From NCBI GenBank assembly GCA_035772405.1, contig JAYKKM010000339.1, positions 1,424,001 through 1,488,000 on the forward strand: DNA of 64,000 bases, read 5' to 3'. The stretch comes from Chrysogorgia sp. JL179-B06. Its lineage: Eukaryota > Cnidaria > Anthozoa > Scleralcyonacea > Chrysogorgiidae. Both the position numbers and the translations under genes were made by a program. Below are positions 23,701 through 60,159 of the stretch, in pieces. Under the pieces are notes generated by a model. It did not search any database and had not been told where the DNA came from. It was given only the letters and a program-made list of their open reading frames with translations. The stretch's first letter is position 1. Every line of letters begins with the position of its first letter.

Positions 23701-26700
23701 CCTATACTGTAACTTTCAGATGATCTCCCTATACAGAGCAGGAATCCAAGGAAAACAAGGAGAGGAATACAATAACAAAACCTAATGTGCAATGATGACT
23801 AAGGAGAACTAATGATGAGATTCCAATTTTAAATGACGAACTCTTAATTTTTTTAAGTAAATAGTCATGAAAATTTTTCTACCCAACCCTTCAGAGAAGT
23901 GATTTTTTACCCAACCATTTAGGTCTTAGAATTTTCAGTTGCCCAACCATTTTCTCTTCTTCCCATATCAAAAGTAATCGAAGAAAACAAATATTTATAA
24001 CATAGCAATTGATATACGCTAATGCTATGTAAGGCGAAGAAATATGCATATCACACCCAAAGAAAAGTTGTTTTGAGAACCCCTTGCCCCCAGAAATTAT
24101 GTACATGTATATATAGTTTGGATTTCAGTGGTTCGAGACTAAGAGTTCAGGAATGCGAAAACCTGGCTGAAAACAAAGTTGATTGTTTTCCTTGCTCTAT
24201 ATGGCAGACTACCCTCAGTTCCCAGCACTTCTGTGTTGTCGGTATGAATGAAAATTGAAGATGTGCTGGGCCACGAAACTAAAACAAAATGTATAGTTGG
24301 GTCATGAAACCATCCAGGGAAATTTGGTTGGGTCACGAAAGGTAGTCTGAGGGTAGTTTAAAAGTTACTGTCCTGCATGACCCAACATTTCAACACTGCA
24401 ATCTAGTGTCTTCATCAGGGGTGATCGTTGTAAAGTTAGGATCCCTATTTATACCCTCATAGAACCGATGATGACGTTATCTATTAACAAGATGCAAATA
24501 AGCTTATGGTAATAAACCACCGTCATCGCGATTCAATGGGGCGTGGGCGCTATTGATATGCCAGACAACATCTCTGATGGTACCGCGGATTAATGGTAAT
24601 AATTTTCCCACGCAATGTCATGGTAGGTTACGCACGCGTGCTCCGACAAATCAGAAATCTCGGTTGATACAACATCACATACGTGTTAATTTGAAAATGG
24701 CTGGACATTCAATAAATCGCAGAAACACTGCTCTACAATTGTTTACTGAGAGTATTATTACAAGAATTAATGGCATGAATAATTGTTCTTGTTCGCTTTA
24801 CAATTTTTTATATTCTAAGGTTTATTTTTACTCCAGTAACCACCTGTTATCTTCCTTAATTATTAACGACAGCGTGTGTGTAAAATAATACAGTAATATT
24901 AAGTACTGTACAAGCCTGGAAATAATTATTTTCACTGTAACTGTCAGAATGACCAGCACAAATGAATTTGTAACGGACATACAAAAATTTGTGCCTGTCA
25001 CGGTACAACTTAGTGTAACGTCTCAAAACTTAGTGTAACGTCTCAAACTTAGTGTAACGTCTCAAACTTAGCGTAACGTCTCCAAACTTAGCGTAACGTC
25101 TCCAAACTTAGCGTAACGTCTCCAAACTTAGCGTAACGTCTCCAAACTTAGCGTAACGTCTCCAAACTTAGCGTAACGTCTCCAAACTTAGCGTAACGTC
25201 TCCAAACTTAGCGTAACGTCTCCAAACTTAGCGTAACGTCTCCAAACTTAGCGTAACGTCTCCAAACTTAGCGTAACGTCTCCAAACTTAGCGTAACGTC
25301 TCCAAACTTAGCGTAACGTCTCCAAACTTAGCGTAACGTCTCCAAACTTAGCGTAACGTCTCCAAACTTAGCGTAACGTCTCCAAACTTAGCGTAACGTC
25401 TCCAAACTTAGCGTAACGTCTCCAAACTTAGCGTAACGTCTCAAATTTAGCGTAACGTCTCAAACTTAGCGTAACGTCTCAAACTTAGCGTAACGTCTCA
25501 AACTTAGCGTAACGTCTCAAACTTAGCGTAACGTCTCAAACTTAGCGTAACGTCTCAAACTTAGCGTAACGTCTCAAACTTAGCGTAACGTCTCAAACTT
25601 AGCGTAACGTCTCCAAACTTAGTGTAACGTCTCATAACGTAGCGCAATATCTCCAAACTTAGCCTTACGTCTCATAACTTAGCGCAATGTCTTAAAACTT
25701 AGCATAACGTCTCATAACATAACACAATATCTCCAAACTTAGCGTAACGTCTCATAACTTAGCGCAATGTCTCCAAAGCTTAATGTCTCCAAATTTAGCA
25801 TAATCAGGTATCTAAACTTAGCATAATCAGGTCTCCAAATAACTTTATTTCAGTGAAAACGTGAAATACAACTGAAAAACAATTAACAATATTACACCAC
25901 TAACTAGTTAGTGACTAGTGACTACACTAGTACTGTAGTACACTACTACAGACTACAGAGTACACTTACACTCTACAGTATATGCAGTATGCCCAGTCAA
26001 CACCAGTTGCAGCGCTATCCCACAGCTCCATCTATCTTTGTTTGACTTGGCGAAGCTTGCCAAAACGAAAGCAATGCGCGTGACTTCCGGTTTTAAAGGA
26101 AGTAAAATTGTCTGAAAATCTTACATGCAAATCAAGAGGCTTCGTTGTTTTACTTATTATAAATGAGAAAAAATCAAATACAGGTATGAATTGAGTAATT
26201 GACCGGGGCTAGTAGTGGCTACATCATTTTCTTATTAAAACGTTTCCGTATCGTACCGCGATGCAGTTCTGCGTGCACCGTATCGTATCGTGGGCTAACG
26301 TATCGCAATATATCGGTGTATCGTTATACCTCTATTTTAAATGTGATAAAAAAATTATACTGATTTACATAAACTTTATCTTTGATTTTCTCAGCTTAGA
26401 TAACATTGATTTACAAAGTTACTACGCCAATGAACTTATCAAATGGGTCGTTTTTGAAGCTGTTTAATAAACTCACAGCACGTGTTTTATCAGATCTAAA
26501 ACACTCGGGCTACGCCCTCGTGTTTTAAATTTGATAAAACACTGCTGCTCGTTTATTAATAAAGTAATTATGCAATTACAAATTCAGTTGTAAAATAACT
26601 CTTTTGTTTGAAAGAAATTCTTGAAACTATAAAGACTAACCATTTACAACTTTTTCATATCTCACTTCACTCTCGAGATATTAAGATTTGTTTAATATGT

Positions 26701-31400: not shown

Positions 31401-33483
31401 GCTCTCGTTGCCATTCTTCGTGTCATCAACGAAGGGTCCACACTCACCCTTGACTTGCGGCATTGCGAATGAAACGCTGAAAAAACGACTATTTTCCCAT
31501 CTCAAGTCTCAAACCACAAGCACCGCCATTTCTGTAGAGACTTGTCATGCATGACATCACCCCCGGCTCTACGAAGGTCATTCCGGCCACTTGTTCACAT
31601 CCGCCACAGGTAACTCCATTTCACGGAAATCATATTATTATTACACAGTCGCCCAAGCTCGTTGTGTGGCAATCTGTGTGATCTGTATATTGGAATTTAT
31701 TCGATTTGTCAAAATTTGAGGTTATTTTCATCTATTATTTGCAGTTTATTATTACAATATTTTGAAATAATTTATATCTACCATAAGGTGTATGTGTGAC
31801 CAGTGTCTGTTCGGTAATATTTAGGACATTTACCGTGCGAAAATATAATGGCTGCATATACTGTATAACCATATATTAAATTTCTTTATATATATTCAAC
31901 AAAATAAACATTTATAAACCATGCATGTTTATTGTATTGCTATATTTATTGTATCGGTATATCGTTTATTGTATTGGCACAAATGGGTTTGAAGTACAAT
32001 GAACAGAATGGTGCCAAGTTTTGCAAGGACGAACATACTGATACAATAAACATGTAGGTAGAAAGAACAAGGTTTATAAAGGTTTATTTTGTTGAATATT
32101 CTTAGTATGTTCAATATAAACAAATTTAATATATGGTTATATATTATATGGCCATTAGATTTTCGCACTGTAAATGACCTAAATATTACCAGACACTGAT
32201 CATTCACCTTATGGTAGATATAACTAGACATTATTTCATTATATTGTAACAATAAACTGCAAATAATAGATGAAAATATCCTCTAATTTTGATAAATCGA
32301 ATAAATTCCAATATAAACACAGATTGCCACACAACGAGCTTGAGCAACTGTGATTATTACGGATATTTAATATTGATTTGGTTCCGCACAAATATCAATG
32401 TATCATAATTGGCATGTTGTAAAACATGGACTGGACTGTACTGGACTGGACTGATAAAACATGGACTGATAAAACATGGACTGGTAAAACATGGAGGGTT
32501 AGGATCTTTGTTGTTTTGGGGTTAGCGATTATTTGTTATAAAACATGAACTGGTAAAACATGTAACGTGTAGCTGTGAATGTATGTCTACTTAAAAAACT
32601 CATTAATAATTCATGAGGAAAACACAAAGGAAAATCACCACCGTGTCGTATCTTTATATGTGATAAAGATTCATCCTAATTTACATAAACTTTAGCTTTC
32701 AACACTGCTGCTCGTGTTTTAAACATTACATTAACAAATAATTGCTATACCCCAAAACAACAAAGATCCTAACCCTCCATGTTTTACCAGTCCATGTTTT
32801 ATCAGTCCATGTTTTATCAGTCCAGTCCATGTTTTACAACATGCCATCATAATTAATATTAAATAATACGGTATAACCTTATGACAAACAGTTGCTAGTC
32901 ACGTTACTAGTACCATCGAAAATCAGATATAAAATAAATAGATTATTAAATAGACTCAGACTTCAAATTTGAACCTGCACTGCTGCAGACCAGAAAATAT
33001 TTCAATTCAAGTGCTAAAATATAGTTGCTTTTCTTGGTCGTTGTCGCCCATTTCGCTGCTATGCCCAAATGGCGTAAATAGTTGTATTATTTGGATGCAG
33101 TTCTGGACGAAAACTACGTTATTTGAAGATGAATATTATCGATAAAGAATGGCAACTGTGCACACACACGTTAACACCCTCATTCAACACACAATAGACC
33201 ATGAAATATCTAATATATTTCTTCATCCGTTTTGGATTAAAAAAGATATTAATCGATAATACGAAGAACATGGCGAACGGCATACAATAACATAACACAA
33301 TATACAAGCAGCAAGTTGGGTACAGCGTTTGTCCAAATACAGACTTGATCTATCAACCACAAGGACTATTAGGAGCAATATAGCGCTCGTCAGTCGTGGC
33401 ACAAGCATCATGTTTTTCTTTGATTTTATAAACAATATAAACACTCACCCTCCTTCAGATTGCATAGTATTATAGCCTGGCAT
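17792..33483 (-). CDS. DNAJC5: Cysteine string protein (DNAJC5/CSP), six exons, 200 aa
   Basis: Exons in transcript order: 33449-33483, 28776-28851, 28573-28629, 27152-27262, 18915-18956 and 17792-18073. All junctions are GT-AG, phases agree and the total is 201 codons. A J domain (about 14-80) starts DLYETLGID and keeps the HPD triad at 43-45, the Hsc70-stimulating motif. The linker [19 protein letters not shown] is nearly identical to vertebrate CSP. A 14-codon exon (NVKLYF...WCK) corresponds to the NVNTYF...WWAK segment. The cysteine string has 14 Cys between residues 112 and 136 and is the palmitoylation site that anchors CSP to synaptic or secretory vesicles. The tail is acidic (six Asp) and Pro/Ser-rich. 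Human CSP has 198 residues. CSP is an Hsc70 co-chaperone in SNARE handling. Exon 1 encodes only 11 residues and rests on a strong GTGAGT donor, the phase and an ATG. Exon 5 rests on phase and family similarity. Confidence 0.85.
18159..18542. mobile_element. Foldback MITE in DNAJC5 intron 5
   Basis: The left arm runs CTATTGAACAAAAGTCCTTG, AAACTTTGCACAAGTATACAGG, and continues to a CAGACTCC-like end. The right arm is its reverse complement ending at 18542. Its edge is 86 bp upstream of the terminal DNAJC5 exon, so the unspliced transcript could form a hairpin beside that acceptor. Confidence 0.75.
19085..19757. mobile_element. Nested foldbacks including MITE 19230-19714
   Basis: The outer arms (TTTGGTGATTGTTTATATAAC and complement near 19745) enclose a perfect ~50-bp palindromic pair (19126-19236, arm AAACCCCGCTTTAAATTTC) and a ~485-bp MITE. 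The MITE has ends TAAAGTGCC.CTAACCTCAAA and is the same family as 41191-41672. Confidence 0.7.
20278..20500 (+). repeat. 15-bp satellite GTTTATATTCGGAGG
   Basis: About 14-15 units of GTTTATATTCGGAGG/GCTTATATTCGGGGG with increasing divergence to the right. The unit length is a multiple of three, so all frames stay open and give false Gly/Phe/Tyr-rich open frames. Confidence 0.9.
20655..20805. mobile_element. Foldback MITE, ~150 bp
   Basis: Arms contain AAAAAGGTTGGTGTACTGC and GTAGTACACCAACCTTTTTAG. The centre GTTTCGAGCGAAGGCCCTTCG is itself palindromic and related to 5819-5994. Confidence 0.75.
20860..22107 (-). CDS. LRRC74-like leucine-rich repeat protein, 415 aa, intronless
   Basis: A single uninterrupted frame from an ATG at 22107. 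Residues 1-105 are charged and low-complexity. From about residue 108 to 375 there are roughly eight ribonuclease-inhibitor-type leucine-rich repeats of 28-29 residues, each with an LxxLDLSxNxLGxxG-like start; the clearest are [27 protein letters not shown] and [15 protein letters not shown]. The starting repeat ([12 protein letters not shown]) and the end ([13 protein letters not shown]) resemble LRRC74A/B. No NACHT, death-fold or membrane segment is present, so this is not an NLR. Molecular function is not known; LRR proteins of this type are usually binding scaffolds. It lies within DNAJC5 intron 5 on the same strand. The lack of introns would fit retrocopy origin, but I see no poly-A tract or flanking repeat that proves it. 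Confidence 0.7.
   Translation of the reverse strand: MSYIRHGVGHFSKSASDVKAVSFRERVMLAAQSKVDLQEKLAMEKSDEKDTIVSSETSLANTETTNLKEVALNDTAVTNYQGVVKYLSEQQRDTILEATEKYGSGLQAEFNFSGRGLGYEGIASLILTLPFNSTNLSKLDFTDCNLDGRGMSVIYKILEANKNIRELKVSGNKVGQEFGVDWVRKMLQFCNIRVLGLARNGLGDKDMGDLMEVMSETEVLRELDLSHNLLGVLAGGVLTEYLPRNVSLRCLDLSHNELGAEGVRSMAVGLQENATLERLDISWNALMDNGMVYVAEILLKVVSLKEISLNGNFVTVIGAQHLAYSLRENCSLEVLRMGQNFLRNAGACVLVRSVRSGVSSKLRLLDLNGTLVENEFTTMYKRIQLDNSTFQITGFCVVGGVVDATFRRRTNSRYK
22678..22940. mobile_element. Near-perfect foldback with TTAGG-rich arms
   Basis: Arms of about 115 bp start TGTAAGCCACAAATTACTGG and contain CCCCAAAACAACAAAGATCC with CCGCCTAACGAG. They meet around a short loop near 22815-22830. 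The inner sequence belongs to the dispersed family seen at 36-180. Confidence 0.85.
22941..24360. other. Intronic interval with a degenerate duplication
   Basis: Within DNAJC5 intron 5. About 23300-23530 and 23635-23780 share several blocks (CAGATAGATCCTA, AACTTTCAGAT, AGGAAAACAAGGAGAGGAAT, GTTTGATTTGAAATATGACCG), so they are an old shuffled duplication. No gene recognised. Confidence 0.5.
24361..24575 (-). repeat. Inverted copy of part of the 16345-17620 composite
   Basis: From AAAAGTTACTGTCC to GCTATTGATATGCCA this is the reverse complement of about 17045-17265, including TATAAATAGGGATCC and ACCCCTGATGAAGACACTAG. Only the single-copy inner portion is present. Confidence 0.75.
24910..25810. 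repeat. 20-bp satellite with leader (copy A)
   Basis: A ~100-bp leader (CAAGCCTGGAAATAATTATT ... TGTCAGAATGACCAGCACAAAT) is followed by about 38 units of 19-20 bp, GCGTAACGTCTC(C)AAACTTA. The middle is homogeneous and both ends are diverged. A homologous leader + array occurs at 39692-40240. Both are intronic or beside exons (DNAJC5 intron 5 here, GBE1 there). Confidence 0.9.
26475..27067. mobile_element. Two adjacent foldbacks in DNAJC5 intron 4-5 region
   Basis: 26475-26565 is a small palindrome (AGATCTAAAACACTCGGGC with CTCGTGTTTTAAAT). 26570-27067 has ~130-bp arms including CTCTTTTGTTTGAAAG, GTTAGTCTTTATAGTTTC and CACTCTCGAGATATTAAG-type sequence. Its right end lies 84 bp from DNAJC5 exon 4. 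Confidence 0.7.
27480..27880 (+). repeat. Degenerate GGTTAGGATTA-type tract
   Basis: G- and T-rich, telomere-like but irregular: GGGATTAGGGTTGGTT units at 27530-27590, decaying to GGTTATG repeats. It is in DNAJC5 intron 3 and is not a telomere. Confidence 0.8.
28055..28335. mobile_element. Foldback MITE, ~280 bp
   Basis: Arms pair TAATATTTGGGTCTTCCTGA with TGAGGAAGACCCAAATATTA, and GATGTGATGTCACAAGAGGC with a diverged complement. It is followed by an A/T-only tract (28340-28545) with (TA)n and AAAAATATA repeats. Confidence 0.75.
28340..28545. repeat. A/T-only low-complexity tract
   Basis: (TA)n at about 28404-28434 and AAAATATAT repeats, directly upstream of the DNAJC5 exon 3 donor side. 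Confidence 0.9.
28996..29180 (+). repeat. Dispersed repeat family (copy 4 of 4)
   Basis: The longest and best match to the 14676 copy, including ACTTGGTTAACATTA and the terminal TTATTAGAAGTTAGA. Confidence 0.65.
29541..29860. mobile_element. MITE with CAATTAGACAACGAG palindrome (copy 1)
   Basis: A palindromic core (AACAATTAGACAACGAG...CGAGTTGTCTAATTG) is followed by ~200 bp that includes ATTACAAATC near the start and TATTTGTAATAG near the end. A second copy is inside the GBE1 3' region at 40430-40735. The short MAENSRFGE open frame on the minus strand is part of the element. Confidence 0.7.
29935..30070. mobile_element. Foldback MITE, ~135 bp
   Basis: Arms CACAGATGTCAGAACGTGGT and ACCACGTTCTGATGTCATCTG, extended by GTCTGTTCA/TGAACAGA. 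It lies in DNAJC5 intron 1. Confidence 0.75.
30200..30400. repeat. SINE-like fragment
   Basis: Contains GGAGGAAAACCAGAGACCCC and GGAGGAAAACCC, related to the body of the SINE at 6846-7072, without a clear tRNA head. Confidence 0.4.
31629..32362. mobile_element. Large foldback with ~300-bp arms
   Basis: The left arm starts TTATTATTACACAGTCGCCC and contains AGCTCGTTGTGTGGCAATC. The right arm is the reverse complement, ending near 32362, with some 15-20% differences. The centre (31925-32050) is rich in TTTATTGTAT repeats. Confidence 0.8.
32411..32845. mobile_element. Foldback with TGGACTGATAAAACA tandem arms
   Basis: Each arm holds two to three units of ACATGGACTG(A/G)TAAA plus GGAGGGTTAGGATCTTTG and TTGTTTTGGGGT, then an inner spacer. 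The arms are near identical over about 120 bp. It is in DNAJC5 intron 1. Confidence 0.8.
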
Positions 33484-38502: not shown

Positions 38503-41500
38503 TTATCCAACGTGTGCGAGGACCAAGGCTGTTCGGCAAGGGATGTAAACCTAAAACCAAATGAAAAATATAATTTCCCCGTCAAATGTAATCCTCATCA
38601 TCCTTGTTTCAATAATTCATAGTTTTATTGGTTATACAGGTACATGTAGTTCTGAATTTTATAATGAAATGTAATTAGTTTTGTAAGTAACTTATTAAGT
38701 AATTTTGTAAAATTCATTAATAATTCATGAAGAAAATTTAAAAGAAATTAATATTTAATCAGCATCTTTAACACAGGATAAAACATTGATTAATAAAACA
38801 TCGATGTTTTATCAAAGTTAACTTGCTCAAATTGAGCTTTTTCGGAGTTAAAATAATTTGTTTGTACCGTTTCTACAACTTCCAAACAAAGTATGTATTA
38901 TACATTCTACTCATTTTACAAGTTCGTTAAAACATTCGCAGTCGATGTTTATGGACAGTTACAACGGCTCGCCTGCAGCTAGCCATTGTAACTGCCCATA
39001 AACATCGGCCACTCGTGTTTAAACTACTACTTAAAAATGTATTGTAAGAGCTGCCATTGAGACTATTGGATAATGCTCCTTTATCATCTTTATAAAATTA
39101 TCATATACAACAAAAAATAAATATTTAAACAAATCCAATACTAACAACAACCTCTTACCATGACTGAATAAGGTCTTCCATTGTAGCTGATATTTTCAAC
39201 AGTGTATTCAGACCCTGACTGAACCCGTACATGCCCACCAAATTCCTTAGCATCTGAATCTAACACAAGTTTATACCTAATATACCGGTAGTTAAGAAAT
39301 GATGATACACTAAATATATTATTAAAATTACATTTATGTGACTGTGTTTTTTCGTTATTTTCAATGACCGAAACTAGATTATTTTGGCAAAAGGATACTT
39401 TCCCATTGCGGGGACGGCAATCCTGTAGTCAGGGAAGCTTTTTGTGGTATGAAAGTTAAAAATGAACACCACACCAGCCCTATCAAATACCATAACTTTA
39501 TCCCCTTGATGCTTCGTGCTGACATAACCCTAAAATGAGAATAAATTTAGTTTATTTTAGTTTATTAGATTTATCACTCTTTTAGGTGAACGGAATACCC
39601 CAACATGCTAGAAGCCCAATTGATAGGGGTTCCGAGGGGCTACGATTTAAGGTCGTTATCCGAGAAGACCCGAAAGTCTTACCATTTGCTGCAAGCCTGG
39701 AAATAATTATTTTCGCTGTACCTGTCAGAATGACCAGCACAAATAAATTTGTACCAGACAAACAAAAAATTGTACCTGTCAACGTACAACTTAGCGTAAC
39801 GTCTTACAACTTAGCGTAATGTCTCACAACTTAGCGCAATGTCTCACAACTTAGCGCAATGTCTCACAACTTAGCGTAACGTCTTACAACTTAGCGTAAC
39901 GTCTTACAACTTAGCGTAACGTCTTACAACTTAGCGCAACGTCTCACAACTTAGCGTAACGTCTCACAACTTAGCGTAACGTCTCACAACTTAGCGTAAT
40001 GTCTCACAACTTAGCGCAATGTCTCACAACGTCTCACAACTTAGCGCAATGTCTCACAACTTAGCCCAATGTCTCACAACTTAGCGTAATGTCTCACAAC
40101 TTAGTGTAATGTCTCCAAACTTAGTGCAACGTCTCGTAACATAGCACGTTTTCAAACTTAGCATAATGTCTCAATTAATAACGCAAGCTCTCCAAACTTA
40201 GTGCAATATGTCTCAAAACTTAGCGTAATGTCTCTCAACTGAGGATGTAGTAAATACGAAATCTAAACATAGTCCATTCAACACAAAAATGTTTTACTTT
40301 CACAAAAAGTTGAATATAATATATAATGTTCGGACAAGATGAGCTTCGGACAAGATGAGCATTGGACAAAATGACAGACACAATTAATCTTGTAACTTCA
40401 AATCTCTAGAAATAGGATATCTAATATATATTTAACAATTAGACAACGAGCCCGCGTTTTCTATGAGCAGATAGTCAAAGGTTGATAGTCAACGAGGCGG
40501 AGCCGAGTTGACTATCGATGATAGAAAACAAGGGCGAGTTGTCTAATTGTTTTAGTATAAATTTACAACTTTCTAACCCAAGAAATAACTTTTATTTCGC
40601 ATTTTTCCTGGCAAAAAAGTAAATATTCTTTCAAAATCAGGCGACTTTTTCCGCAGAGGTTTATATCAGCGGATAGTAACTCCTGCGATAGCCAATCAAA
40701 ATTGAGGATTTGTGATTTATACTAAATATAGATATAATCTCTAGAAATAGGATATGTCCGTGACCGGCCGCTAATATCCAGGGTTTTATTTGCTGGTATT
40801 ATTGCAAAGGCAGCACTTCGCCTCAATTGGTCTGACCTAAGTCTACAAAAACATTTGTATTGTAAATCTGCATTTAATTATACTGAGTACCTGTGGAGCA
40901 TGCAGCCATCCATATTTTTCTTCCAAATGGTTCATCCTTTTGTCAAAGTTATTGAGAAATTTATAACGTAGCAGCTCATCATCAGCCAAGTAAAATAACC
41001 TCCTTGCGTAGTGATAACTAGAATTATTACCTTGTCTTGGAAAGTCTAACCATTCAGGATGGCCAAACTCATTGCCTATGAAGTTCATGTAAGCTTCTCC
41101 GCCTAGCCCATGAGTAAGCAACCTAGTGGAAGGTTAGAGAGAAACGTGCTACGATAATGAATGTTGTAAAATGTTATAAAAGAAGTTTGTTTAAAGTGCC
41201 CATAACCTCAAAATATTTTATTGTCTTGTTTGGAAGAACTTTTAAAATGATAAAGTAACTTCTTTTGAAGATTTTCGTTTCTTTGCTTTCTTTTTGAGAT
41301 ATATCAGTTTGTTTGATATGCAAAATGTCTGGAATTTCGTCACACATGCATAATGACTTATTGGAGAAATGTGTATATCTCTTTCAATCTCGAACGAAAT
41401 CCTTTAAAATCGAGAGGTTTGGTGTTGTGGGAGAAACACGCACACGTGTTATTCACACTTTAGTGTTTTTATTTCATGAACGCAAAGATATATAACATTC

Positions 41501-47500: not shown

Positions 47501-48136
47501 CACTCTTTCAACCATTCCCATGAATGTATTAATACCTACATCAGCAAATCACCTTTAATATTCACAAAAACCACACAGTAACAGGGCCGCCAAGATACTG
47601 TAGGCCCAGGGGAAGGTGGGGTTATGGTCTTTCACAGGCCCCTAAATGCCCTAGAAGCTTTATCGTCCATCTGTCTTCTCCGAGCTCTCCCACATTCACT
47701 ACAACATTGTGTATATTAATGCATCCAAGCATTCAATACCGACACATAGTGACTGCCGCATAGGCAGTACATATATCAATTGAACCAGTACATCATTGTA
47801 ACCTTCGCTCTCCATCTGAGTCTCGGTAGCTCAATGGTTAGAGTGTCTCACCGGCAATCAGGTTCAATTCCTGTACGGGACTCAGAATCATTTTTCTGAC
47901 ACGAGCTTAACGATCGTCCACGTATCGTCAAGCTTTATTCTATGTGTAGGATTTGCATGATGGTTATCATTTCAGGCCCCTTATTTGGCCCAGGTCCTGG
48001 GGCAGTTACCCTGGCTACCCCAGTCTCTCAGCAGGGCTGACAAGGCCCCAACAATGATATAGTTATGTACATTACCAGATACCTGTTCAAGAACTTTCAC
48101 AAATAAGTTATCTCTTATTTTCGTTGTTCGTTTCAT
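38503..48136 (-). CDS. GBE1: 1,4-alpha-glucan (glycogen) branching enzyme, 13 exons, 698 aa
   Basis: Exons in transcript order: 48083-48136, 47308-47396, 46246-46412, 45482-45597, 44735-45087, 44355-44564, 43844-44087, 43070-43168, 42178-42413, 40891-41122, 39399-39529, 39159-39276, 38503-38550. Phases agree throughout; length is 698 residues against 702 in human GBE1. It transfers alpha-1,4 glucan segments to alpha-1,6 positions in cytosolic glycogen synthesis. An N-terminal helical segment and CBM48 ([18 protein letters not shown]) precede the GH13_8 barrel. Catalytic residues are present: Asp356 in FDGFRFDG, Glu411 in the IAE|DVSG motif, and Asp480 in [11 protein letters not shown]. Each is one less than the human number. 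The beta-sandwich C-terminus ends [15 protein letters not shown]. An intron directly follows the Glu411 codon. Exon 1 (18 codons) is supported only by phase, donor and weak similarity; the 48-bp last exon is supported by phase, acceptor and VYIP similarity. Confidence 0.92.
38937..39015. repeat. Short palindrome in GBE1 intron
   Basis: CGATGTTTATGGACAGTTAC and its near complement GTAACTGCCCATAAACATCG flank a ~30-bp loop. Confidence 0.75.
39560..40835. mobile_element. Satellite-bearing element in GBE1 intron (array copy B)
   Basis: The 5' part (39560-39690, TTATCACTCTTTTAGGTGAA to GAAGACCCGAAAGTCTT) and 3' part (40795-40835, TTATTGCAAAGGCAGCACTT) match the element at 46570-46745. Between them lie the leader (39692-39788), about 22 units of the 20-bp CACAACTTAGCGTAACGTCT satellite (39789-40240), and other sequence including the MITE at 40430-40735. 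Confidence 0.75.
40430..40735. mobile_element. MITE with CAATTAGACAACGAG palindrome (copy 2)
   Basis: Same family as 29541-29860. It lies between two copies of ATCTCTAGAAATAGGATAT (about 40403-40421 and 40738-40756). Confidence 0.7.
41191..41672. mobile_element. Foldback MITE, TTAAAGTGCC family (copy 2)
   Basis: ~480 bp with long arms (CATAACCTCAAAAT, GTTTGGAAGAACTTTTAAAA). Nearly identical in structure to 19230-19714. It is in a GBE1 intron. Confidence 0.8.
41914..42028. mobile_element. Near-perfect palindrome in GBE1 intron
   Basis: Arms CACATGTGACATTGCTATTC and complement, with GGCGATTCTCC/GGAGAATCGCC outside and a loop of about 10 bp. Confidence 0.85.
42470..42600. repeat. TTTTTAATTT low-complexity tract
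   Basis: Almost pure A/T in the GBE1 intron between exons 42178-42413 and 43070-43168. Confidence 0.85.
44216..44345 (+). repeat. GTCAGTCAGTCC/GTCCAGTCCA microsatellite
   Basis: Tetra- and pentanucleotide repeats in the GBE1 intron, adjacent to the donor of exon 44355-44564. Confidence 0.85.
45662..46034. mobile_element. pogo/Tigger-type MITE
   Basis: Ends CAGTGGAGCCTCGCTATA and TATAGCAAGGCTCCACTG with TA on each side (45660-45661, 46035-46036). The interior has ATAACGCGCGTCTCGGTATAAC. These ends and the TA target are typical of Tigger-like Tc1/mariner elements. No transposase. Confidence 0.8.
46570..46745 (+). mobile_element. Array-free copy of the satellite-bearing element
   Basis: Matches 39560-39690, then passes directly to the TTATTACAAAGGCAGCACTT part found at 40795, without leader or satellite. 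Confidence 0.75.
47745..47883 (+). mobile_element. Leader + tRNA-like unit (SINE-like)
   Basis: The leader is homologous to the arms at 14344-14550. It is followed at 47818-47883 by a tRNA-like fold: GAGTCTC pairs with GGGACTC, box A is TAGCTCAATGG, box B is GGTTCAATTCC. The anticodon arm is several bases short, so it is not a functional tRNA. 47925-48005 continues with a second repeat also found inverted at 61620-61695. Confidence 0.65.
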
Positions 48137-48815
48137 GAAGCATCACAGGGCTGTGCCATTGATTAATAAAACATCTGTAGCCAGAGACTTGTACCTAACA
48201 CAATAAATGAAAGGTCTTATTCACTGTGATGTTTAACTAGTTTGATTTCAAAATAGTGTGTAGAGCAAAGGCCCTTTGTCAGAAAACTTTAACGGGGAGC
48301 AAGCAGGGGATGTGGGGGAGAGGTATGTTTACTCAGGGGGGGCATCCCAAAATATGTGATTATTTTACACCTGCTCCCACTTGTGATACTTTGTGACAGT
48401 TGTCATTACCTCTCACCCAAAGCATCAAATATTTTGTAAACCTCCCTGATATTAAATATTATATTAAAATGTTAAATATACTACTAGGTATGTTGATTTT
48501 TTGCAAGTCCGATATTATGACATTGATCCAAATACTAAGCAAACCACATCTCGCATTCTATAGACTGCAGCAAGTATTTCAAAGGCCAATTCATTACATT
48601 GATACATTCATTACAATACATAAGAATGGATAAACTTTAGAAATGTAGAACAAAGCACATTGTGTGAAAGATATGAATTAATTTCCATAGAGAGAATTTT
48701 AGAGAGGTTAAATATCACAGAACACGTACCTTATAAAAAGTAACTAAATAAGCTATTTACTAATAAGAATCATGATATCCATTCACCACGTTGCAAAATT
48801 GCATGATTATTCAAA
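48137..48815. other. GBE1 upstream region (left of the giant foldback)
   Basis: 679 bp between the proposed GBE1 ATG and the left target duplication. No exon, TATA box or CpG-rich stretch is obvious. It should hold GBE1 5' UTR and proximal promoter. Confidence 0.4.
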
Positions 48816-48929
48816 TATTTCTTGGTAAGTACTTCATGTATGCCTATTATTATGTCCCAAGGCGTGTTAGGGGGGAGGGGTAGTATGTAGTATGTAGCAT
48901 ATAGTATGGTGAAGTACGCTGCAATAAGG

Positions 48930-51900
48930 TGCAGTATAGGGTGCAGTAGAGTGCAGTAGCCTGTATTAGGGTGCAGTAGACTGTATTAGGGTGCAGTAGA
49001 CTGCAGTAGAGTGCATTAGGGTGCAGTAGACTGTATTACGGTGCAGTAGAGTGCATTAGGGTGCAGTAGAGTGCATTAGGGTGCAGTAGACTCATGCATT
49101 AGGGTGCAGTAGACTGTATTAGGGTGCAGTAGAGTGCATTAGGGTGCAGTAGACTGTATTAGGGTGCAGTAGACTGTATTAGAGTGCAGTATAGTGTATT
49201 AGGGTGCAGTAGACTGTATTAGAGTGCATTAGGGTGCAGTAGACTGCAGTAGAGTGCATTAGGGTGCAGTAGACTGTATTACGGTGCAGTAGAGTGCATT
49301 AGGGTGCAGTAGAGTGCATTAGGGTGCAGTAGACTGCATTAGGGTGCAGTAGACTGTATTAGGGTGCAGTAGAGTGCATTAGGGTGCAGTAGACTGTATT
49401 AGGGTGCAGTAGACTGTATTAGAGTGCAGTAGAGTGTATTAGGGTGCAGTAGACTGTATTAGAGTGCATTAGGGTGCAGTAGACTGCAGTAGAGTGCATT
49501 AGGGTGCAGTAGACTGTATTACGGTGCATTAGGGTGCAGTAGACTGTATTACGGTGCAGTAGAGTGCATTAGGGTGCAGTAGAGTGCATTAGGGTGCAGT
49601 AGACTGCATTAGGGTGCAGTAGACTGTATTAGGGTGCAGTAGAGTGCATTAGGGTGCAGTAGAGTGCATTAGGGTGCAGTAGACTGTATTAGAGTGCAGT
49701 AGAGTGCATTAGGGTGCAGTAGAGTGCATTAGGGTGCAGTAGACTGTATTAGAGTGCATTAGGGTGCAGTAGACTGCAGTAGAGTGCATTAGGGTGCAGT
49801 AGACTGTATTAGGGTGCAGTAGACTGCATTAGGGTGCAGTAGACTGTATTAGGGTGCAGTAGACTGTATTAGGGTGCAGTAGAGTGCATTAGGGTGCAGT
49901 AGAGTGCATTAGGGTGCAGTAGACTGTATTAGAGTGCATTAGGGTGCAGTGGACTGCAGTAGACTGTATTAGAGTGCATTAGGGTGCAGTAGACTGTATT
50001 ACGGTGCAGTAGAGTGCATTAGGGTGCAGTAGACTGTATTAGAGTGCATTAGGGTGCAGTGGACTGCAGTAGACTGTATTAGAGTGCATTAGGGTGCAGT
50101 AGACTGCAGTAGACTGCAGTAGAGTGCATTAGGGTGCAGTAGACTGTATTACGGTGCAGTAGAGTGCATTAGGGTGCAGTAGAGTGCATTAGGGTGCAGT
50201 AGAGTGCATTAGGGTGCAGTAGACTGTATTAGAGTGCATTAGGGTGCAGTAGACTGCAGTAGAGTGCATTAGGGTGCAGTAGACTGTATTACGGTGCAGT
50301 AGCGTGCATTAGGGTGCAGAGTGCATTAGGGGGCAGTAGACTGCATTAAGGTGCAGTAGACTGTATTAGAGTGCAGTAGACTGCAGTAGAGTGCATTAGG
50401 GTGCAGTAGACTGTATTAGGGTTCAGTAGAGTGTATTAGGGTGCAGTAGACTGCATTAGGGTGCAGTAGACTGTATTAGGGTGCAGCAGAGTGCATTAGG
50501 GTGCAGTAGACTGTATTAGGGTGCAGTAGAGTGCATTAAGGTGCAATAGACTGCAGTAGACCGCATTAGGGTGCAGTAGACTGTAGTAGGGAGCATTAGG
50601 GTGCAGTAGACTGTATTAGAGTGCATTAGGGTGCAGTAGATTGCATTAGGGTGCAGTAGACTGTATTAGGGTGCCGTAGAGTGCATTAGGGTGCAGTAGA
50701 GTGCATTAGGGTGCAGTAGACTGTATTAGAGTGCATTAGGGTGCAGTAGACTGCATTAGCATGCAGTAGACTGTATTATGGTGCAGTAGAGTGCATTAGG
50801 GTGCAGTAGAGTGCATTAGGGTGCAGTAGACTGTATTAGAGTGCATTAGGGTGCAGTGAGTGCATTAGGGTGCAGTAGACTGTATTAGGGTGCAGTAGAG
50901 TGTATTAGGGTGCAGTAGAGTGCATTAGGGTGCAGTAGACTGCATTAGGGTGCAGTAGAGTGTATTAGGGTGCAGTAGAGTGCATTAGGGTGCAGTAGAC
51001 TGCATTAGGGTGCAGTAGAGTGCAGTAGACTGTAGTAGAGTGCAGTAGACTGCATTAGGGTGCAGTAGAGTGCAGTAGACTGTAGTAGAGTGCATTAGGG
51101 TGCAGTAGAGTGCATTAGGGTGCAGTAGACTGTATTAGGGTGCAGTAGACTGCAGTAGACCGCATTAGCGTGCAGTAGACTGCATTAGGGTGCAGTAGAG
51201 TGCATTAGGGTGCAGTAGACTGTATTAGGGTGCAGTAGAGTGCAGTAGACCGCATTAGGGTGCAGTAGACTGCATTAGGGTGCAGTAGAGTGCAGTAGAC
51301 TGTATTAGGGTGCAGTAGGGTGCAGCAGACTGTATTAGAGTGCATTAGGGTGCAGTAGACTGCAGTAGAGTGCATTAGGGTGCAGTAGACTGTATTACGG
51401 TGCAGTAGAGTGCATTAGGGTGCAGTAGAGTGCATTAGGGTGCAGTAGACTGCATTAGGGTGCAGTAGACTGTATTAGGGTGCAGTAGAGTGCATTAGGG
51501 TACAGTAGAGTGCATTAGGGTGCAGTAGACTGTATTAGAGTGCAGTAGAGTGCATTAGGGTGCAGTAGAGTGCATTAGGGTGCAGTAGACTGAATTAGAG
51601 TGTATTAGGGTGCAGTAGACTGCAGTAGAGTGCATTAGGGTGCAGTAGACTGTATTACGGTGCAGTAGGGTGCAGTAGAGTGCATTAGGGTGCAGTAGAC
51701 TGCATTAGGGTGCAGTAGACTGTATTAGGGTGCAGTAGAGTGCATTAGAGTGCATTAGGGTGCATTAGGGTGCAGTAGACTGTATTAGGGTGCAGTAGAG
51801 TGCATTAGGGTGCATTAGAGTGCATTAGGGTGCAGTAGACTGTATTAGAGTGTATTAGGGTGCAGTAGACTGCAGTAGAGTGCATTAGGGTGCAGTAGAC

Positions 51901-54330
51901 TGCATTAGGGTGCAGTAGACTGTATTAGGGTGCAGTAGAGTGCATTAGGGTGCAGTAGAGTGCAGTAGACTGTAGTAGGGTGCATTAGGGTGCAGTAGAG
52001 TGCATTAGGGTGCAGTAGAGTGCATTAGGGTGCAGTAGACTGCAGTAGACTGCATTAGGGTGCAGTAGAGTGCAGTAGACTGTAGTAGAGTGCATTAGGG
52101 TGCAGTAGAGTGCATTAGGGTGCAGTAGACTGTATTAGGGTGCAGTAGACTGCAGTAGAGTGCATTAGGGTGCAGTAGACTGCAGTAGACTGCATTAGGG
52201 TGCAGTAGAGTGCAGTAGACTGTAGTAGACTATATTAGAGTGCATTAGGGTGCAGTAGACTGTATTAGGGTGCAGTAGAGTGCATTAGGGTGCATTAGAG
52301 TGCATTAGGGTGCAGTAGACTGTATTAGAGTGCATTAGGGTGCAGTAGACTGCAGTAGAGTGCATTAGGGTGCAGTAGACTGCATTAGGGTGCAGTAGAC
52401 TGTATTATGGTGCAGTAGACTGTATTAGGGTGCAGTAGAGTGCAGTAGACCGCATTAGGGTGCAGTAGACTGCATTAGGGTGCAGTAGAGTGCAGTAGAC
52501 TGTATTAGGGTGCAGTAGGGTGCAGTAGACTGTATTAGAGTGCATTAGGGTGCAGTAGACTGTATTAGAGTGCATTAGGGTGCAGTAGACTGCAGTAGAG
52601 TGCATTAGGGTGCAGTAGACTGTATTACGGTGCAGTAGACTGCATTAGGGTGCAGTAGACTGTATTAGGGTGCAGTAGAGTGCATTAGGGTGCAGTAGAG
52701 TGCAGTAGACTGTAGTAGGGTGCATTAGGGTGCAGTAGAGTGCATTAGGGTGCAGTAGAGTGCATTAGGGTGCAGTAGACTGCAGTAGACTGCATTAGGG
52801 TGCAGTAGAGTGCAGTAGACTGTAGTAGAGTGCATTAGGGTGCAGTAGAGTGCATTAGGGTGCAGTAGACTGTATTAGGGTGCAGTAGACTGCAGTAGAG
52901 TGCATTAGGGTGCAGTAGACTGCAGTAGACTGCATTAGGGTGCAGTAGAGTGCAGTAGACTGTAGTAGACTATATTAGAGTGCATTAGGGTGCAGTAGAC
53001 TGTATTAGGGTGCAGTAGAGTGCATTAGGGTGCATTAGAGTGCATTAGGGTGCAGTAGACTGTATTAGAGTGCATTAGGGTGCAGTAGACTGCAGTAGAG
53101 TGCATTAGGGTGCAGTAGACTGCATTAGGGTGCAGTAGACTGTATTATGGTGCAGTAGACTGTATTAGGGTGCAGTAGAGTGCAGTAGACCGCATTAGGG
53201 TGCAGTAGGGTGCATTAGGGTGCAGTAGGGTGCATTAGGGTGCAGTAGACTGCAGTAGAGTGCATTAGGGTGCAGTAGACTGTATTACGGTGCAGTATAG
53301 TGCATTAGGGTGCAGTAGAGTGCATTAGGGTGCAGTAGACTGCATTAGGGTGCAGTAGACTGTATTAGGGTGCAGTAGAGTGCATTAGGGTACAGTAGAG
53401 TGCATTAGGGTGCAGTAGACTGTATTAGAGTGCAGTAGAGTGCATTAGGGTGCAGTAGAGTGCATTAGGGTGCAGTAGACTGAATTAGAGTGTATTAGGG
53501 TGCAGTAGACTGCAGTAGAGTGCATTAGGGTGCAGTAGACTGTATTACGGTGCAGTAGAGTGCATTAGGGTGCAGTAGAGTGCATTAGGGTGCAGTACAC
53601 TGCATTAGGGTGCAGTAGAGTGCATTAGGGTGCAGTAGACCTGTATTAGAGTGCATTAGGGTGCAGTAGACTGCAGTAGAGTGCATTAGGGTGCAGTAGA
53701 CTGCATTAGGGTGCAGTAGACTGTATTAGGGTGCAGTAGAGTGCATTAGGGTGCAGTAGAGTGCAGTAGACTGTAGTAGGGTGCATTAGGGTGCATTAGG
53801 GTGCAGTAGAGTGCATTAGGGTGCAGTAGAGTGCATTAGGGTGCAGTAGACTGCAGTAGAGTGCATTAGGGTGCAGTAGACTGTATTAGGGTGCAGTAGA
53901 CTGTATTAGGGTGCAGTAGAGTGTATTAGAGTGCATTAGGGTGCAGTAGACTGCAGTAGAGTGCATTAGGGTGCAGTAGACTGCATTAGGGTGCAGTAGA
54001 CTGTATTAGGGTGCAGTAGAGTGCATTAGGGTGCAGTAGAGTGCATTATGGTGCAATAGACTGCAGTAGAGTGCATTAGGGTGCAGTAGACTGTATTAGG
54101 GTGCAGTAGACTGTATTAGGGTGCAGTAGACTGCATTAGGGTGCAGTAGACTGTATTAGGGTGCAGTAGACTGTATTAGGGTGCAGTAGAGTGCATTAGG
54201 GTGCAGTAGACTGCAGTAGAGTGCATTAGGGTGCAGTAGACTGTATTAGGGTGCAGTAGAGTGCATTAGGGTGCAGTAGAGTGCACTATGGTGTATTGGG
54301 GTGCAGTAGACTGCGGTAGAGTGCAGTATA
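48930..54330 (+). repeat. Left-arm 10/20-bp satellite
   Basis: Built from 10-bp words TGCAGTAGAG, TGCAGTAGAC, TGCATTAGGG, TGTATTAGGG and minor variants, joined with almost no length errors. Longer blocks recur, for example with a 240-bp shift between 49141 and 49381 and about 740 bp between the 52021 and 52761 regions. Confidence 0.95.
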
Positions 54331-54456
54331 CTGTATGTGTGTGTGTGTGTGATATTGTCACTCGGTAATATGATGAGATGAAATGTTCTCAAGTAAATGA
54401 GCAAAACCGTGTAAGCAGAAAATATATATATAAATCATGAATCCCATCGAACTTGA

Positions 54457-54540
54457 CCGTGTAGCTCAGATGGTTAGAGAGATGGTTAGAGCGTTGAACT
54501 AGTGAATCAAAGGTTTCGGATTCGACACCCAGCCACGGCA
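54457..54540 (+). other. tRNA-like sequence in left inner arm
   Basis: CCGTG and CACGG bracket a box A (TAGCTCAGATGG) and a box B-like GGATTCGACACC. A 12-bp duplication (AGATGGTTAGAG) interrupts the D/anticodon region. The mirror copy is at about 56083-56163. A pseudo-tRNA or SINE head. Confidence 0.5.
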
Positions 54541-55221
54541 AGCAGTTTTCTGCTTACGGGGTTTGGGCTCATTCACTCGAGAACATCTCACCGTTCATTT
54601 CATATATATATTACGCAAAAATAACACATGTGATTTCTAAAATATTTATTTAGAGACGATCTTCTGTTTTATTATCTTATAAACAAACAAGTAGACATTT
54701 TAAGTCGCTTTGAGAAATTTTTTCATTTTCACGTAAAATATCAATTAACGAGAGTGAATTTTATAGTCGATTGAAACAATAACTCAAGATAAAATTTTGA
54801 AGGAAAAATGACAGATCGTGAAGACTGATACGTAAATATATCCCAGTCCTTATCTGTTGGTAGAACAATAATGGTGAATCAATGTGATTGACTATGAAGC
54901 TCAATTTTTTAGGTCTTGAGAACTATATAAACGCATGTTTTATACCCACAAATTTGGTCTTAATCATGCGAATGCTCTCGTGTGGAGTTATTGTTCCATT
55001 CTACTATCGAGTTCACTGGTAAAACCACGCTGTTCTATACGTTATACTGAAAAATTATGTTAAACAGTTTTTGTTAATATAAAATATTGGTCAATTACTG
55101 TATTAACATAACAGGTTGTGCAAATACCGTTATGACGTCCAAGATGGTTTGATTAGGTTTTTTAGGAAAAAAAGGAAACAAACGCTCTGTCTTTACACTC
55201 TCCTCCGCAGAGGCTTCTTGA

Positions 55222-55383
55222 GTTCTATCGGGCGTGCGCGTTCTGGGAGGGCGCGCGGAGAGAGATGGGATCCCTTCTCTCCCGCGTGCTCAAAATTCCG
55301 CGTCGCCATTAGTCTCCGAAACACCCTGTAGCCAGAGAAATATAAAACAGCTCAACAAATATAAAACTCCGTTTGCCCTTTCA
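55222..55383. other. Central spacer of the giant foldback
   Basis: 162 bp, not inverted, with a GC-rich left half (GGGAGGGCGCGCGGAGAG). It contains GGGATCCCTTCTCTCCCGCG and no open frame of note. Confidence 0.8.
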
Positions 55384-56274
55384 AGCCCGATAGAACTCAA
55401 GAAGCCTCTGCGGAGGAGAGTGTAAAGACAGAGCGTTTGTTTCCTTTTTTTCCTAAAAAACCTAATCAAACCATCTTTGACGTCATAACGGTATTTGCAC
55501 AACCTGTTATGTTAATACAGTAATTGACCAATATTTTATATTAACAAAAACTGTTTAACATAATTTTTCAGTATAACGTATAGAACAGCGTGGTTTTACC
55601 AGTGAACTCGATAGTAGAATGGAACAATAACTCCACACGATAGCATTCGCATGATTAAGACCAAATTTGTGGGTATAAAACATGCGTTTATATAGTTCTC
55701 AAGACCTAAAAAATTGAGCTTCATAGTCAATCACATTGATTCACCATTATTGTTCTACCAACAGATAAGGACTGGGGTATATTTACGTATCAGTCTTCAC
55801 GATCTGTCATTTTTCCTTCAAAATTTTATCTTGAGTTATTGTTTCAATCGACTATAAAATTCACTCTCGTTAATTGATATTTTACGTGAAAATGAAAAAA
55901 TTTCTCAAAGCGACTTAAAATGTCTACTTGTTTGTTTATAAGATAATAAAACAGAAGATCGTCTCTAAATAAATATTTTAGAAATCACATGTGTTATTTT
56001 TGCGTAATATATATATGAAATGAATGGTGAGATGTTCTCGAGTGAATGAGCCCAAACCCCGTAAGCAGAAAACTGCTTGCCGTGGCTGGGTGTCGAATCC
56101 GAAACCTTTGATTCACTAGTTCAACGCTCTAATCATCTCTCTAACCATCTGAGCTACACGGTCAAGTTCGATGGGATTCATGATTTATATATATATTTTC
56201 TGCTTACACGGTTTTGCTCATTTACTTGAGAACATTTCATCTCATCATATTACCGAGTGACAATATCACACACA

Positions 56275-59200
56275 CACACACATACAGTATACTGCACTCT
56301 ACCGCAGTCTACTGCACCCCAATACACCATAGTGCACTCTACTGCGCCCTAATGCACTCTAATACAGTCTACTGCAGTCCACTGCACCCTAATGCACTCT
56401 AATACAGTCTACTGCACCCTAATGCACTCTACTGCACCCTAATGCACTCTACTGCACGCTAATGCACGCTACTGCACCGTAATACAGTCTACTGCACCCT
56501 AATGCACTCTACTGCACCCTAATGCACTCTACTGCACTCTAATACAGTCTACTGCACCCTAATACAGTCTACTGCACCCTAATGCACTCTACTGCACCCT
56601 AATACAGTCTACTGCACCCTAATGCACTCTACTGCACCCTAATGCACTCTACTGCACCCTAATGCACTCTACTGCACCGTAATACAGTCTACTGCACCCT
56701 AATGCACCGTAATACAGTCTACTGCACCCTAATGCACTCTACTGCAGTCTACTGCACCCTAATGCACTCTAATACAGTCTACTGCACCCTAATACACTCT
56801 ACTGCACTCTAATACAGTCTACTGCACCCTAATACAGTCTACTGCACCCTAATGCACTCTACTGCACCCTAATGCACTCTACTGCACCCTAATGCACTCT
56901 ACTGCACCATAATACAGTCTACTGCACCCGAATGCACTCTGCTGCTGTCTACTGCAGTCTACTGCACCCTAATGCACTCTAATACAGTCTACTGCAGTCC
57001 ACTGCACCCTAATGCACTCTAATACAGTCTACTGCACCCTAATGCACTCTACTGCACCCTAATGCACTCTACTGCACCCTAATACAGTCTACTGCACCCT
57101 AATACAGTCTACTGCACCCTAATGCAGTCTACTGCACCCTAATACAGTCTACTGCACCCTAATACAGTCTACTGCACCCTAATGCACTCTACTGCAGTCT
57201 ACTGCACCCTAATGCACTCTAATACAGTCTACTGCACCCTAATGCACTCTACTGCACCCTAATGCACTCTACTGCACCCTAATGCACTCTACTGCACCAT
57301 AATACAGTCTACTGCACCCGAATGCACTCTGCTGCTGTCTACTGCAGTCTACTGCACCCTAATGCACTCTAATACAGTCTACTGCAGTCCACTGCACCCT
57401 AATGCACTCTAATACAGTCTACTGCACCCTAATGCACTCTACTGCACCCTAATGCACTCTACTGCACCCTAATACAGTCTACTGCACCCTAATACAGTCT
57501 ACTGCACCCTAATGCAGTCTACTGCACCCTAATACAGTCTACTGCACCCTAATACAGTCTACTGCACCCTAATGCACTCTACTGCAGTCTACTGCACCCT
57601 AATGCACTCTAATACAGTCTACTGCACCCTAATGCACTCTAATACAGTCTACTGCAGTCCACTGCACCCTAATGCACTCTAATACAGTCTACTGCACCCT
57701 AATGCACTCTACTGCACCCTAATGCACTCTACTGCACGCTAATGCACGCTACTGCACCGTAATACAGTCTACTGCACCCTAATGCACTCTACTGCACCCT
57801 AATGCACTCTACTGCACCCTAATACAGTCTACTGCACCCTAATACAGTCTACTGCACCCTAATGCAGTCTACTGCACCCTAATACAGTCTACTGCACCCT
57901 AATACAGTCTACTGCACCCTAATGCACTCTACTGCAGTCTACTGCACCCTAATGCACTCTAATACAGTCTACTGCACCCTAATGCACTCTAATACAGTCT
58001 ACTGCAGTCCACTGCACCCTAATGCACTCTAATACAGTCTACTGCACCCTAATGCACTCTACTGCACCCTAATGCACTCTACTGCACGCTAATGCACGCT
58101 ACTGCACCGTAATACAGTCTACTGCACCCTAATGCACTCTACTGCACCCTAATGCACTCTACTGCACTCTAATACAGTCTACTGCACCCTAATACAGTCT
58201 ACTGCACCCTAATGCACTCTACTGCACCCTAATACAGTCTACTGCACCCTAATGCACTCTACTGCACCCTAATGCACTCTACTGCACCCTAATGCACTCT
58301 ACTGCACCATAATACAGTCTACTGCACCCGAATGCACTCTGCTGCTGTCTACTGCAGTCTACTGCACCCTAATGCACTCTAATACAGTCTACTGCAGTCC
58401 ACTGCACCCTAATGCACTCTAATACAGTCTACTGCACCCTAATGCACTCTACTGCACCCTAATGCACTCTACTGCACCCTAATACAGTCTACTGCACCCT
58501 AATACAGTCTACTGCACCCTAATGCAGTCTACTGCACCCTAATACAGTCTACTGCACCCTAATACAGTCTACTGCACCCTAATGCACTCTACTGCAGTCT
58601 ACTGCACCCTAATGCACTCTAATACAGTCTACTGCACCCTAATGCACTCTACTGCACCCTAATGCACTCTACTGCACTCTAATACAGTCTACTGCACCCT
58701 AATGCACTCTACTGCACCCTAATGCACTCTACTGCACCCTAATACAGTCTACTGCACCCTAATGCAGTCTACTGCACTCTACTGCACTCTACTGCACCGT
58801 AATACAGTCTACTGCACCCTAATGCACTCTACTGCAGTCTACTGCACCCTAATGCACTCTAATACAGTCTACTGCAGTCCACTGCACCCTAATGCACTCT
58901 AATACAGTCTACTGCACTCTAATACAGTCTACTGCACACTAATACAGTCTACTGCACCCTAATGCACTCTACTGCACCCTAATGCACTCTACTGCACCGT
59001 AATACAGTCTACTGCACCCTAATGCACTCTACTGCAGTCTACTGCACCCTACTGCACCCTAATACAGTCTACTGCACCCATGCAGTCTACTGCACCCTAA
59101 TGCACTCTACTGCACCCTAATGCACTCTACTGCACCATAATACAGTCTACTGCACCCGAATGCACTCTGCTGCTGTCTACTGCAGTCTACTGCACCCTAA

Positions 59201-60050
59201 TGCACTCTAATACAGTCTACTGCAGTCCACTGCACCCTAATGCACTCTAATACAGTCTACTGCACCCTAATGCACTCTACTGCACCCTAATGCACTCTAC
59301 TGCACCCTAATACAGTCTACTGCACCCTAATACAGTCTACTGCACCCTAATGCAGTCTACTGCACCCTAATACAGTCTACTGCACCCTAATACAGTCTAC
59401 TGCACCCTAATGCACTCTACTGCAGTCTACTGCACCCTAATGCACTCTAATACAGTCTACTGCACCCTAATGCACTCTACTGCACCCTAATGCACTCTAC
59501 TGCACTCTAATACACTCTACTGCACCCTAATACAGTCTACTGCACCCTAATGCAGTCTACTGCACCCTAATACAGTCTACTGCACCCTAATGCAGTCTAC
59601 TGCACGCTAATGCACTCTACTGCACCCTAATGCACTCTACTGCACCGTAATACAGTCTACTGCACCCTAATGCACTCTACTGCAGTCTACTGCACCCTAA
59701 TGCACTCTAATACAGTCTACTGCACCCTAATGCACTCTACTGCACCCTAATGCACTCTACTGCACTCTAATACAGTCTACTACACACTAATACAGTCTAC
59801 TGCGCCCTAATGCACTCTACTGCACCCTAATACAGTCTACTGCACCCTAATGCAGTCTACTGCACCCTAATGCACTCTACTGCACCCTAATGCACTCTAC
59901 TGCACCGTAATACAGTCTACTGCACCCTAATGCACTCTACTGCAGTCTACTGCACCCTAATGCACTCTAATACAGTCTACTGCACCCTACTGCACCCTAA
60001 TACAGGCTACTGCACTCTACTGCACCTTATACTGCACCTTATTGCAGCGT
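56275..60050 (-). repeat. Right-arm 10/20-bp satellite
   Basis: Reverse orientation of the left satellite (ACTGCACCCT, AATGCACTCT, AATACAGTCT). Marker words such as CACCCGAATGCACTCTGCTG recur at about 56930, 57313, 58323 and 59153, showing higher-order duplication. It is about 1.6 kb shorter than the left array. Confidence 0.95.
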
Positions 60051-60159
60051 ACTTCACCATACTATATGCTACATACTACATACTACCCCTCCCCCCTAAC
60101 ACGCCTTGGGACATAATAATAGGCATACATGAAGTACTTACCTATTTCTTCGTTCTTTA

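Follow-up and report, generated by a model that had tools for sequence, protein, structure and literature searches.

A foldback element of 11.3 kb in the octocoral Chrysogorgia, probably derived from the right end of a 35.5-kb element with a candidate transposase

We analyzed a 64,000-bp stretch of contig JAYKKM010000339.1 (positions 1,424,001 to 1,488,000, assembly GCA_035772405.1) from Chrysogorgia sp. JL179-B06, here referred to as the window. It contained a foldback element of 11,319 bp spanning from 48824 to 60142. The element is probably a non-autonomous derivative of a family that includes a 35.5-kb copy (C36:806727-842255), composed of two right ends of such a copy placed head to head and moved in trans. 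Both have the same ends with 8-bp duplications next to them, and a putative transposase frame is located inside the larger one. The inner arms of the window element correspond in sequence to the right end of the presumed parent, and the centre of its palindrome lies on an inverted repeat that is found in undoubled copies.

An earlier note on this DNA had described an 11.3-kb foldback with inverted ends, identical 8-bp flanks and opposed satellite arrays, and all of these features were confirmed. The sequence GGTAAGTACTTCATG had a single occurrence on each strand of the window (48824 on the plus strand, 60128-60142 on the minus strand), and the two ends were identical across the terminal 113 bp. 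Both ends were directly adjoined by TATTTCTT (48816-48823 and 60143-60150), which had five further occurrences elsewhere in the window. The chance of an exact match of the 8-bp flanks was approximately 2.4e-5 according to the base composition of the window. The element thus has long inverted arms with tandem repeats, little sequence between them and a target-site duplication around the whole unit, as is characteristic of foldback-type elements. No match within the window was obtained with Rfam at gathering scores.

From left to right the element consisted of a terminal block, a 5.4 kb satellite, an inner arm, a spacer, the second inner arm, a 3.7 kb satellite and the second terminal block (Table 1). 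The satellites had a period of 20 bp in opposite orientation, with 273 copies in the left and 190 copies in the right array and an alignment identity of ~ 86-88%. Their units were mainly built from the 10-bp words TAGGGTGCAG, TAGAGTGCAT and TAGACTGTAT, and the self-complementary word TGCAGTAGACTGCA was found 52 times in the left and 24 times in the right arm. The inner arms were near-identical (99.3-99.4%) as previously claimed, but with sizes of ~ 909 bp for the arms and ~ 145 bp for the spacer instead of 0.88 kb and 162 bp. A part of the inner arm (54427-54611 and its mirror) belongs to a dispersed repeat with copies in many contigs, mostly at 77-84% identity, and may represent a small element nested in the right end of the parent.

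The core of the window element matched the inner portion of the right end of the 35.5-kb copy (C36 839416-840447) once per direction. No part of C36 812690-839400 matched the window element. The window palindrome turns where C36 carries an imperfect inverted repeat (839416-839462 and 839600-839646, 91% identity, loop of 137 bp). Only three inverted repeats of at least 38 bp with at least 90% identity and a loop of at most 400 bp were found in 27,771 interior bases; the four stretches were scanned separately, so that repeats spanning a border remained unseen, and simple sequence was masked. The two sides of the C36 repeat differ at two sites, and there both stems of the window carried the letters of the inner side, while the adjoining sequence was that of the outer side. 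Such a combination could be left by a strand switch inside the stem.

The inverted repeat was present in the undoubled copies C36, C248, C405, C404 and C56 with stems 83-91% alike. Of these, C405 and C404 appear to represent the same locus in two versions and thus may not be independent. Copy C439 had lost the inner stem through a small deletion. Since the stem identity was 98.5% in the window compared to 83-91% in the single copies, the palindrome looks younger than the repeat. The same palindrome centre was found at three places on a second contig (C58, stem identity 97.1%) in the other orientation, which argues against an assembly artefact. In the C58 copy that was aligned (L087) the stem letters differed from the window at one site, which may reflect either one founder with later change or a second birth. 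The element copies in G000:C58:202000-265000 had closely similar left flanks, suggesting that this locus was duplicated in tandem after the insertion.

Table 1. Features of the foldback element in the window
Feature	Position	Strand	Basis
Left copy of 8-bp target-site duplication TATTTCTT	48816..48823		flank comparison
Left terminal inverted block (GGTAAGTACTTCATG...)	48824..48936	+	113 bp identical to right block
Left satellite arm, 20-bp period	48937..54325	+	repeat scan
Left inner arm, corresponding to inner region of right end of 35.5-kb copy (C36 839606-840447), inverted order	54328..55236	-	alignment
Left inverted-repeat stem at palindrome centre (inner-type letters, outer-type flank)	55196..55236	+	alignment and inverted-repeat scan
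Spacer, corresponding to loop of the parental inverted repeat (C36 839457-839605)	55237..55381		alignment
Right inverted-repeat stem at palindrome centre	55382..55422	-	alignment
Right inner arm, matching C36 as far as 840447	55382..56290	+	alignment
Right satellite arm, units as in left arm, shorter	56290..60026	-	repeat scan
Right terminal inverted block	60027..60142	-	end comparison
Right copy of 8-bp target-site duplication TATTTCTT	60143..60150		flank comparison

The 781-Mb assembly contained the 21-bp terminus (at most one mismatch) at 163 places and its reversed control at none; 100 of the 163 places were listed. Four end pairs had 8-bp duplications directly outside the terminus. Besides the window element (TATTTCTT) these were C36 (GATCACTT, 35.5 kb), C439 (CCCAGCGT, 8.1 kb) and C348 (626 bp), the latter with a match of 7/8 and the others exact. 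Insertion as one unit, as proposed in the earlier note, is therefore supported by three further copies with the same ends and different 8-bp duplications. An additional end pair of 1,062 bp (C477), with one end cut to 14 bp, was without a duplication, and for the end on C267 no partner was found within the 8 kb examined.

The transposase, left unknown by the earlier note, has a strong candidate inside the 35.5-kb copy, a coding element sharing the ends of the window element; taken as a whole, the interpretation given there was supported in part. C36 likely codes for a DDE transposase of IS256/MULE-like type with a fused OTU cysteine-protease domain, and a CXC frame comes after it. An IS256/MULE-type DDE catalytic core was recognized in the candidate in a fold comparison confined to chains among the first 1000 of Foldseek, and weak matches to the Pfam MULE domain were obtained for 5 of 47 rows at E ≤ 1 (best 0.017). 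The duplications of 8 bp (three copies exact, one at 7/8, none in C477) lie within the 8-11 bp given for Mutator/MULE elements in PMC6446971. A relative of the transposase from Paramuricea clavata shared 77% identity over 21% of the query. The KDZ/Zisupton superfamily was considered because of its 8-bp duplications and dropped; no such row was among the Pfam matches listed, which does not exclude this superfamily.

Copy C439 is a separate insertion. Its interior matched C36 812674-815294 at 99.3%, followed by 838640-839405 and 839446-840212 at 97-99%. What remains in C439 is thus the final 250 bp of the transposase frame together with the CXC frame and the right inner region, whereas the middle is lost. 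As C36 and C439 have different duplications and share this part of the gene at the same position relative to the ends, the gene belongs to the element.

The candidate transposase of 853 residues (L037:1646-4207, minus strand) and several of its relatives have a hydrophobic N-terminal stretch similar to a signal peptide, which is odd for a nuclear enzyme (12 rows, by eye). Furthermore, the 35.5-kb copy carried an exon-like frame (L036:5661-5978, plus strand) without a Pfam match. It contains the Walker-A-like motif GQPVSGKST and may be a second or captured gene.

Based on these data we propose that breakage within a C36-type element would have been the first step. The broken strand would have folded back at the inverted repeat, or switched template there, and copying of the right end outward would have resulted in two right ends in a head-to-head arrangement. 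This product would then have been moved in trans by the transposase, leaving the 8-bp duplication. The satellite arms may have grown by slippage or unequal exchange, and they may hold extra transposase binding sites.

Several observations weigh against such an origin. Among the 42 pairs with both ends read (four bounded by an 8-bp duplication, C477 without one, and 37 within other arms), those 37 are extended on either side by further satellite arms, inverted or matching. They came from two sets of loci (19 and 18 pairs). In the set of 18, 12 pairs showed symmetry at 18 or more of 20 flank bases, and the other 6 shared the outer satellite on both sides without base-by-base symmetry. The 37 pairs are partly non-independent, since L021 (C399) reproduces the L015 locus at 97-98% identity. 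Single ends were read at another 20 places (21 ends), with such outer flanks at 18 ends and without them at three (C267, C348 and C477); 6 + ends on C58 and 1 on C43 were read without a partner. Additionally, no empty allele was found, as the left flank (47935-48823), the one flank used, had no second copy when 40 of 3169 assembly candidates were scored. The IS256/MULE assignment is based on the fold and on weak profile matches. The C36 protein had no NCBIfam match, and its DUF6729, OTU and CXC matches were below the curated scores of Pfam. Finally, the C36 copy, with other repeats in its interior, may be inactive.

Homology that does not stop at 48824/60142 had been named beforehand as an argument against the element. 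Taken literally, this applies to most copies (37/42). However, the terminus stands for the window, C36, C439 and C348, because the outer arms, where their ends were reached, belong to a second kind of foldback element. Eight elements (L015 twice, L016, L017, L020, L021, L023 and L025) carried the outer terminus TACGGTGGCCCAGAA on either side. Matching 6-bp flanks were present in 8/8 complete elements, of which at most 6 are independent. These elements carry the terminal block and satellite of the first kind at their centre and different satellites outside; at the remaining loci the outer end was unreached or not found. The second kind would arise by fold-back starting in an element that lies inside another transposon. 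The whole L015 locus (C231:933855-941890) forms a larger palindrome of two mirror-image elements of the second kind, the arms of which share 94.7% identity across 2.4 kb.

A less likely but serious alternative is aberrant gap repair at the site of the window element itself. A C36-type element would have been excised or broken here, its left satellite end would have invaded the homologous right satellite in inverted orientation and copied inward, and the two new strands would have annealed at the repeat, with TATTTCTT dating from the insertion of the parent. Inverted invasion is possible, as the satellite arms of C36 share common units in opposite orientation, and annealing at the inverted repeat would yield the same junction. 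The ends of Galileo were extended by recruited internal sequence, for which a break after excision is one possible cause according to PMC3573991. The absence of the parental left inner region from the window element is compatible with gap repair as well as with derivation from two right ends moved in trans. However, the same centre at another locus on C58 would mean that the palindrome moved or the event recurred.

It is very improbable that the doubled form is ancestral and that the single-arm copies C36, C439, C248, C405, C404 and C56 lost most of one arm, retaining the short repeat as a remnant. In favour of it, both sides of the repeat are still present in all of these copies except C439, which lacks the inner side. 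Against it stand the younger look of the palindrome, the sequence inside the stem shared by C36, C248 and C405, which would not be expected from independent deletions, and the distinct left inner region with the gene in C36. A local inverted duplication or assembly artefact combined with a chance 8-bp match was rejected, since even though a palindrome is hard to assemble and only assembled sequence was available, three different exact 8-bp duplications occur at the same terminus, each with the chance given above, and C58 repeats the centre in the other orientation.

Beyond derivation of the window element from two right ends, we tentatively consider a recurring route, by which giant elements with an OTU transposase spawn mobile palindromes when breaks inside them are repaired by folding back, either at inverted repeats or at hairpin-forming satellite words. 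In that case the window and C58 elements would have originated independently from one and the same hairpin. The product would carry whatever lies outward and would be moved by the transposase of its own family, as in the window and on C58. With the parent inside another transposon, the enzyme of that transposon would act, giving layered foldbacks with 6-bp duplications.

Elsewhere in the window, two separate arrays with closely similar 20-bp units were found at 25007-25782 (AACTTAGCGTAACGTCTCCA) and 39786-40240 (ACAACTTAGCGTAATGTCTC). A second small foldback-like structure was located at 32410-32846. It had inverted arms of 98 bp that were 98% alike, 29 additional identical bp and 15-bp tandem units, and a duplication was not obvious in the flanks inspected. 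A frame at 8231-9250 (minus strand) encoded an NHERF1-like PDZ protein. Its best named matches came from Dendronephthya, Paramuricea and Xenia, with unnamed matches ranking higher.

Among known foldback elements, FB-NOF of Drosophila is similar in that rare copies carry a coding region between satellite-like arms, and it differs by 9-bp duplications and the NOF protein. Of the foldbacks with IS256/MULE-type enzymes considered here, the closest is Tm1 of Meloidogyne, a member of the Mutator superfamily (PMC3169594). It shares the variable-length composite inverted ends with internal short repeats, the 8-10 bp duplications, the few transposase-coding and many non-coding copies and the type of enzyme. 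However, Tm1 has FLYWCH and MULE domains and units of ~ 14 bp, in contrast to the DUF6729-like and OTU regions and the 35.5-kb parent found here. Tetris of Drosophila virilis (PMC4079207) is a foldback with a terminal block, tandem repeats in its arms, 8-10 bp duplications and satellite growth, but with units of ~ 220 bp.

Galileo (PMC3573991) also has long, internally repetitive ends lengthened by tandem repeats and recruited internal sequence. Membership was rejected because of its 7-bp instead of 8-bp duplications, and it encodes a transposase of the P superfamily. No THAP row, as for a THAP-type P transposase, was among the matches listed in two Pfam scans, one of which showed 25 of 38 families. 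Rehavkus (PMC6446971) has a Mutator-related enzyme and a minisatellite next to an end. It was rejected for its 9-bp duplications, and further differs by a PHD finger and by the minisatellite preceding the 3' end. Transposases of some Ginger1 families, with Hydra among the hosts, carry a C-terminal OTU domain (PMC2836005). However, these have a Gypsy-integrase-type catalytic core, and neither the 4-bp CCGG/CCGT duplications nor the TGTNR ends of Ginger1 were present here, so that Ginger1 was rejected as well.

Our searches of the open-licence literature returned neither an IS256-like core joined to OTU nor a 35-kb parent or a readable birth junction, nor anything on DUF6729 or on a transposase with OTU and CXC; octocoral foldback elements were not among the matches listed. 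To judge from these searches, the family is undescribed. The origin and the mobiliser of foldbacks are hard to settle without the coding parent, and for Tetris such a parent was not found (PMC4079207), whereas a likely parent was found here. In the Chrysogorgia genome this likely parent, an internally deleted sibling and a doubled derivative coexist, and at the join of the derivative, letters of the two sides of the parental hairpin can still be read. This makes it possible to test directly how a foldback element originated, and a 35-kb element whose transposase combines an IS256-like core with an OTU domain is worth describing as well.
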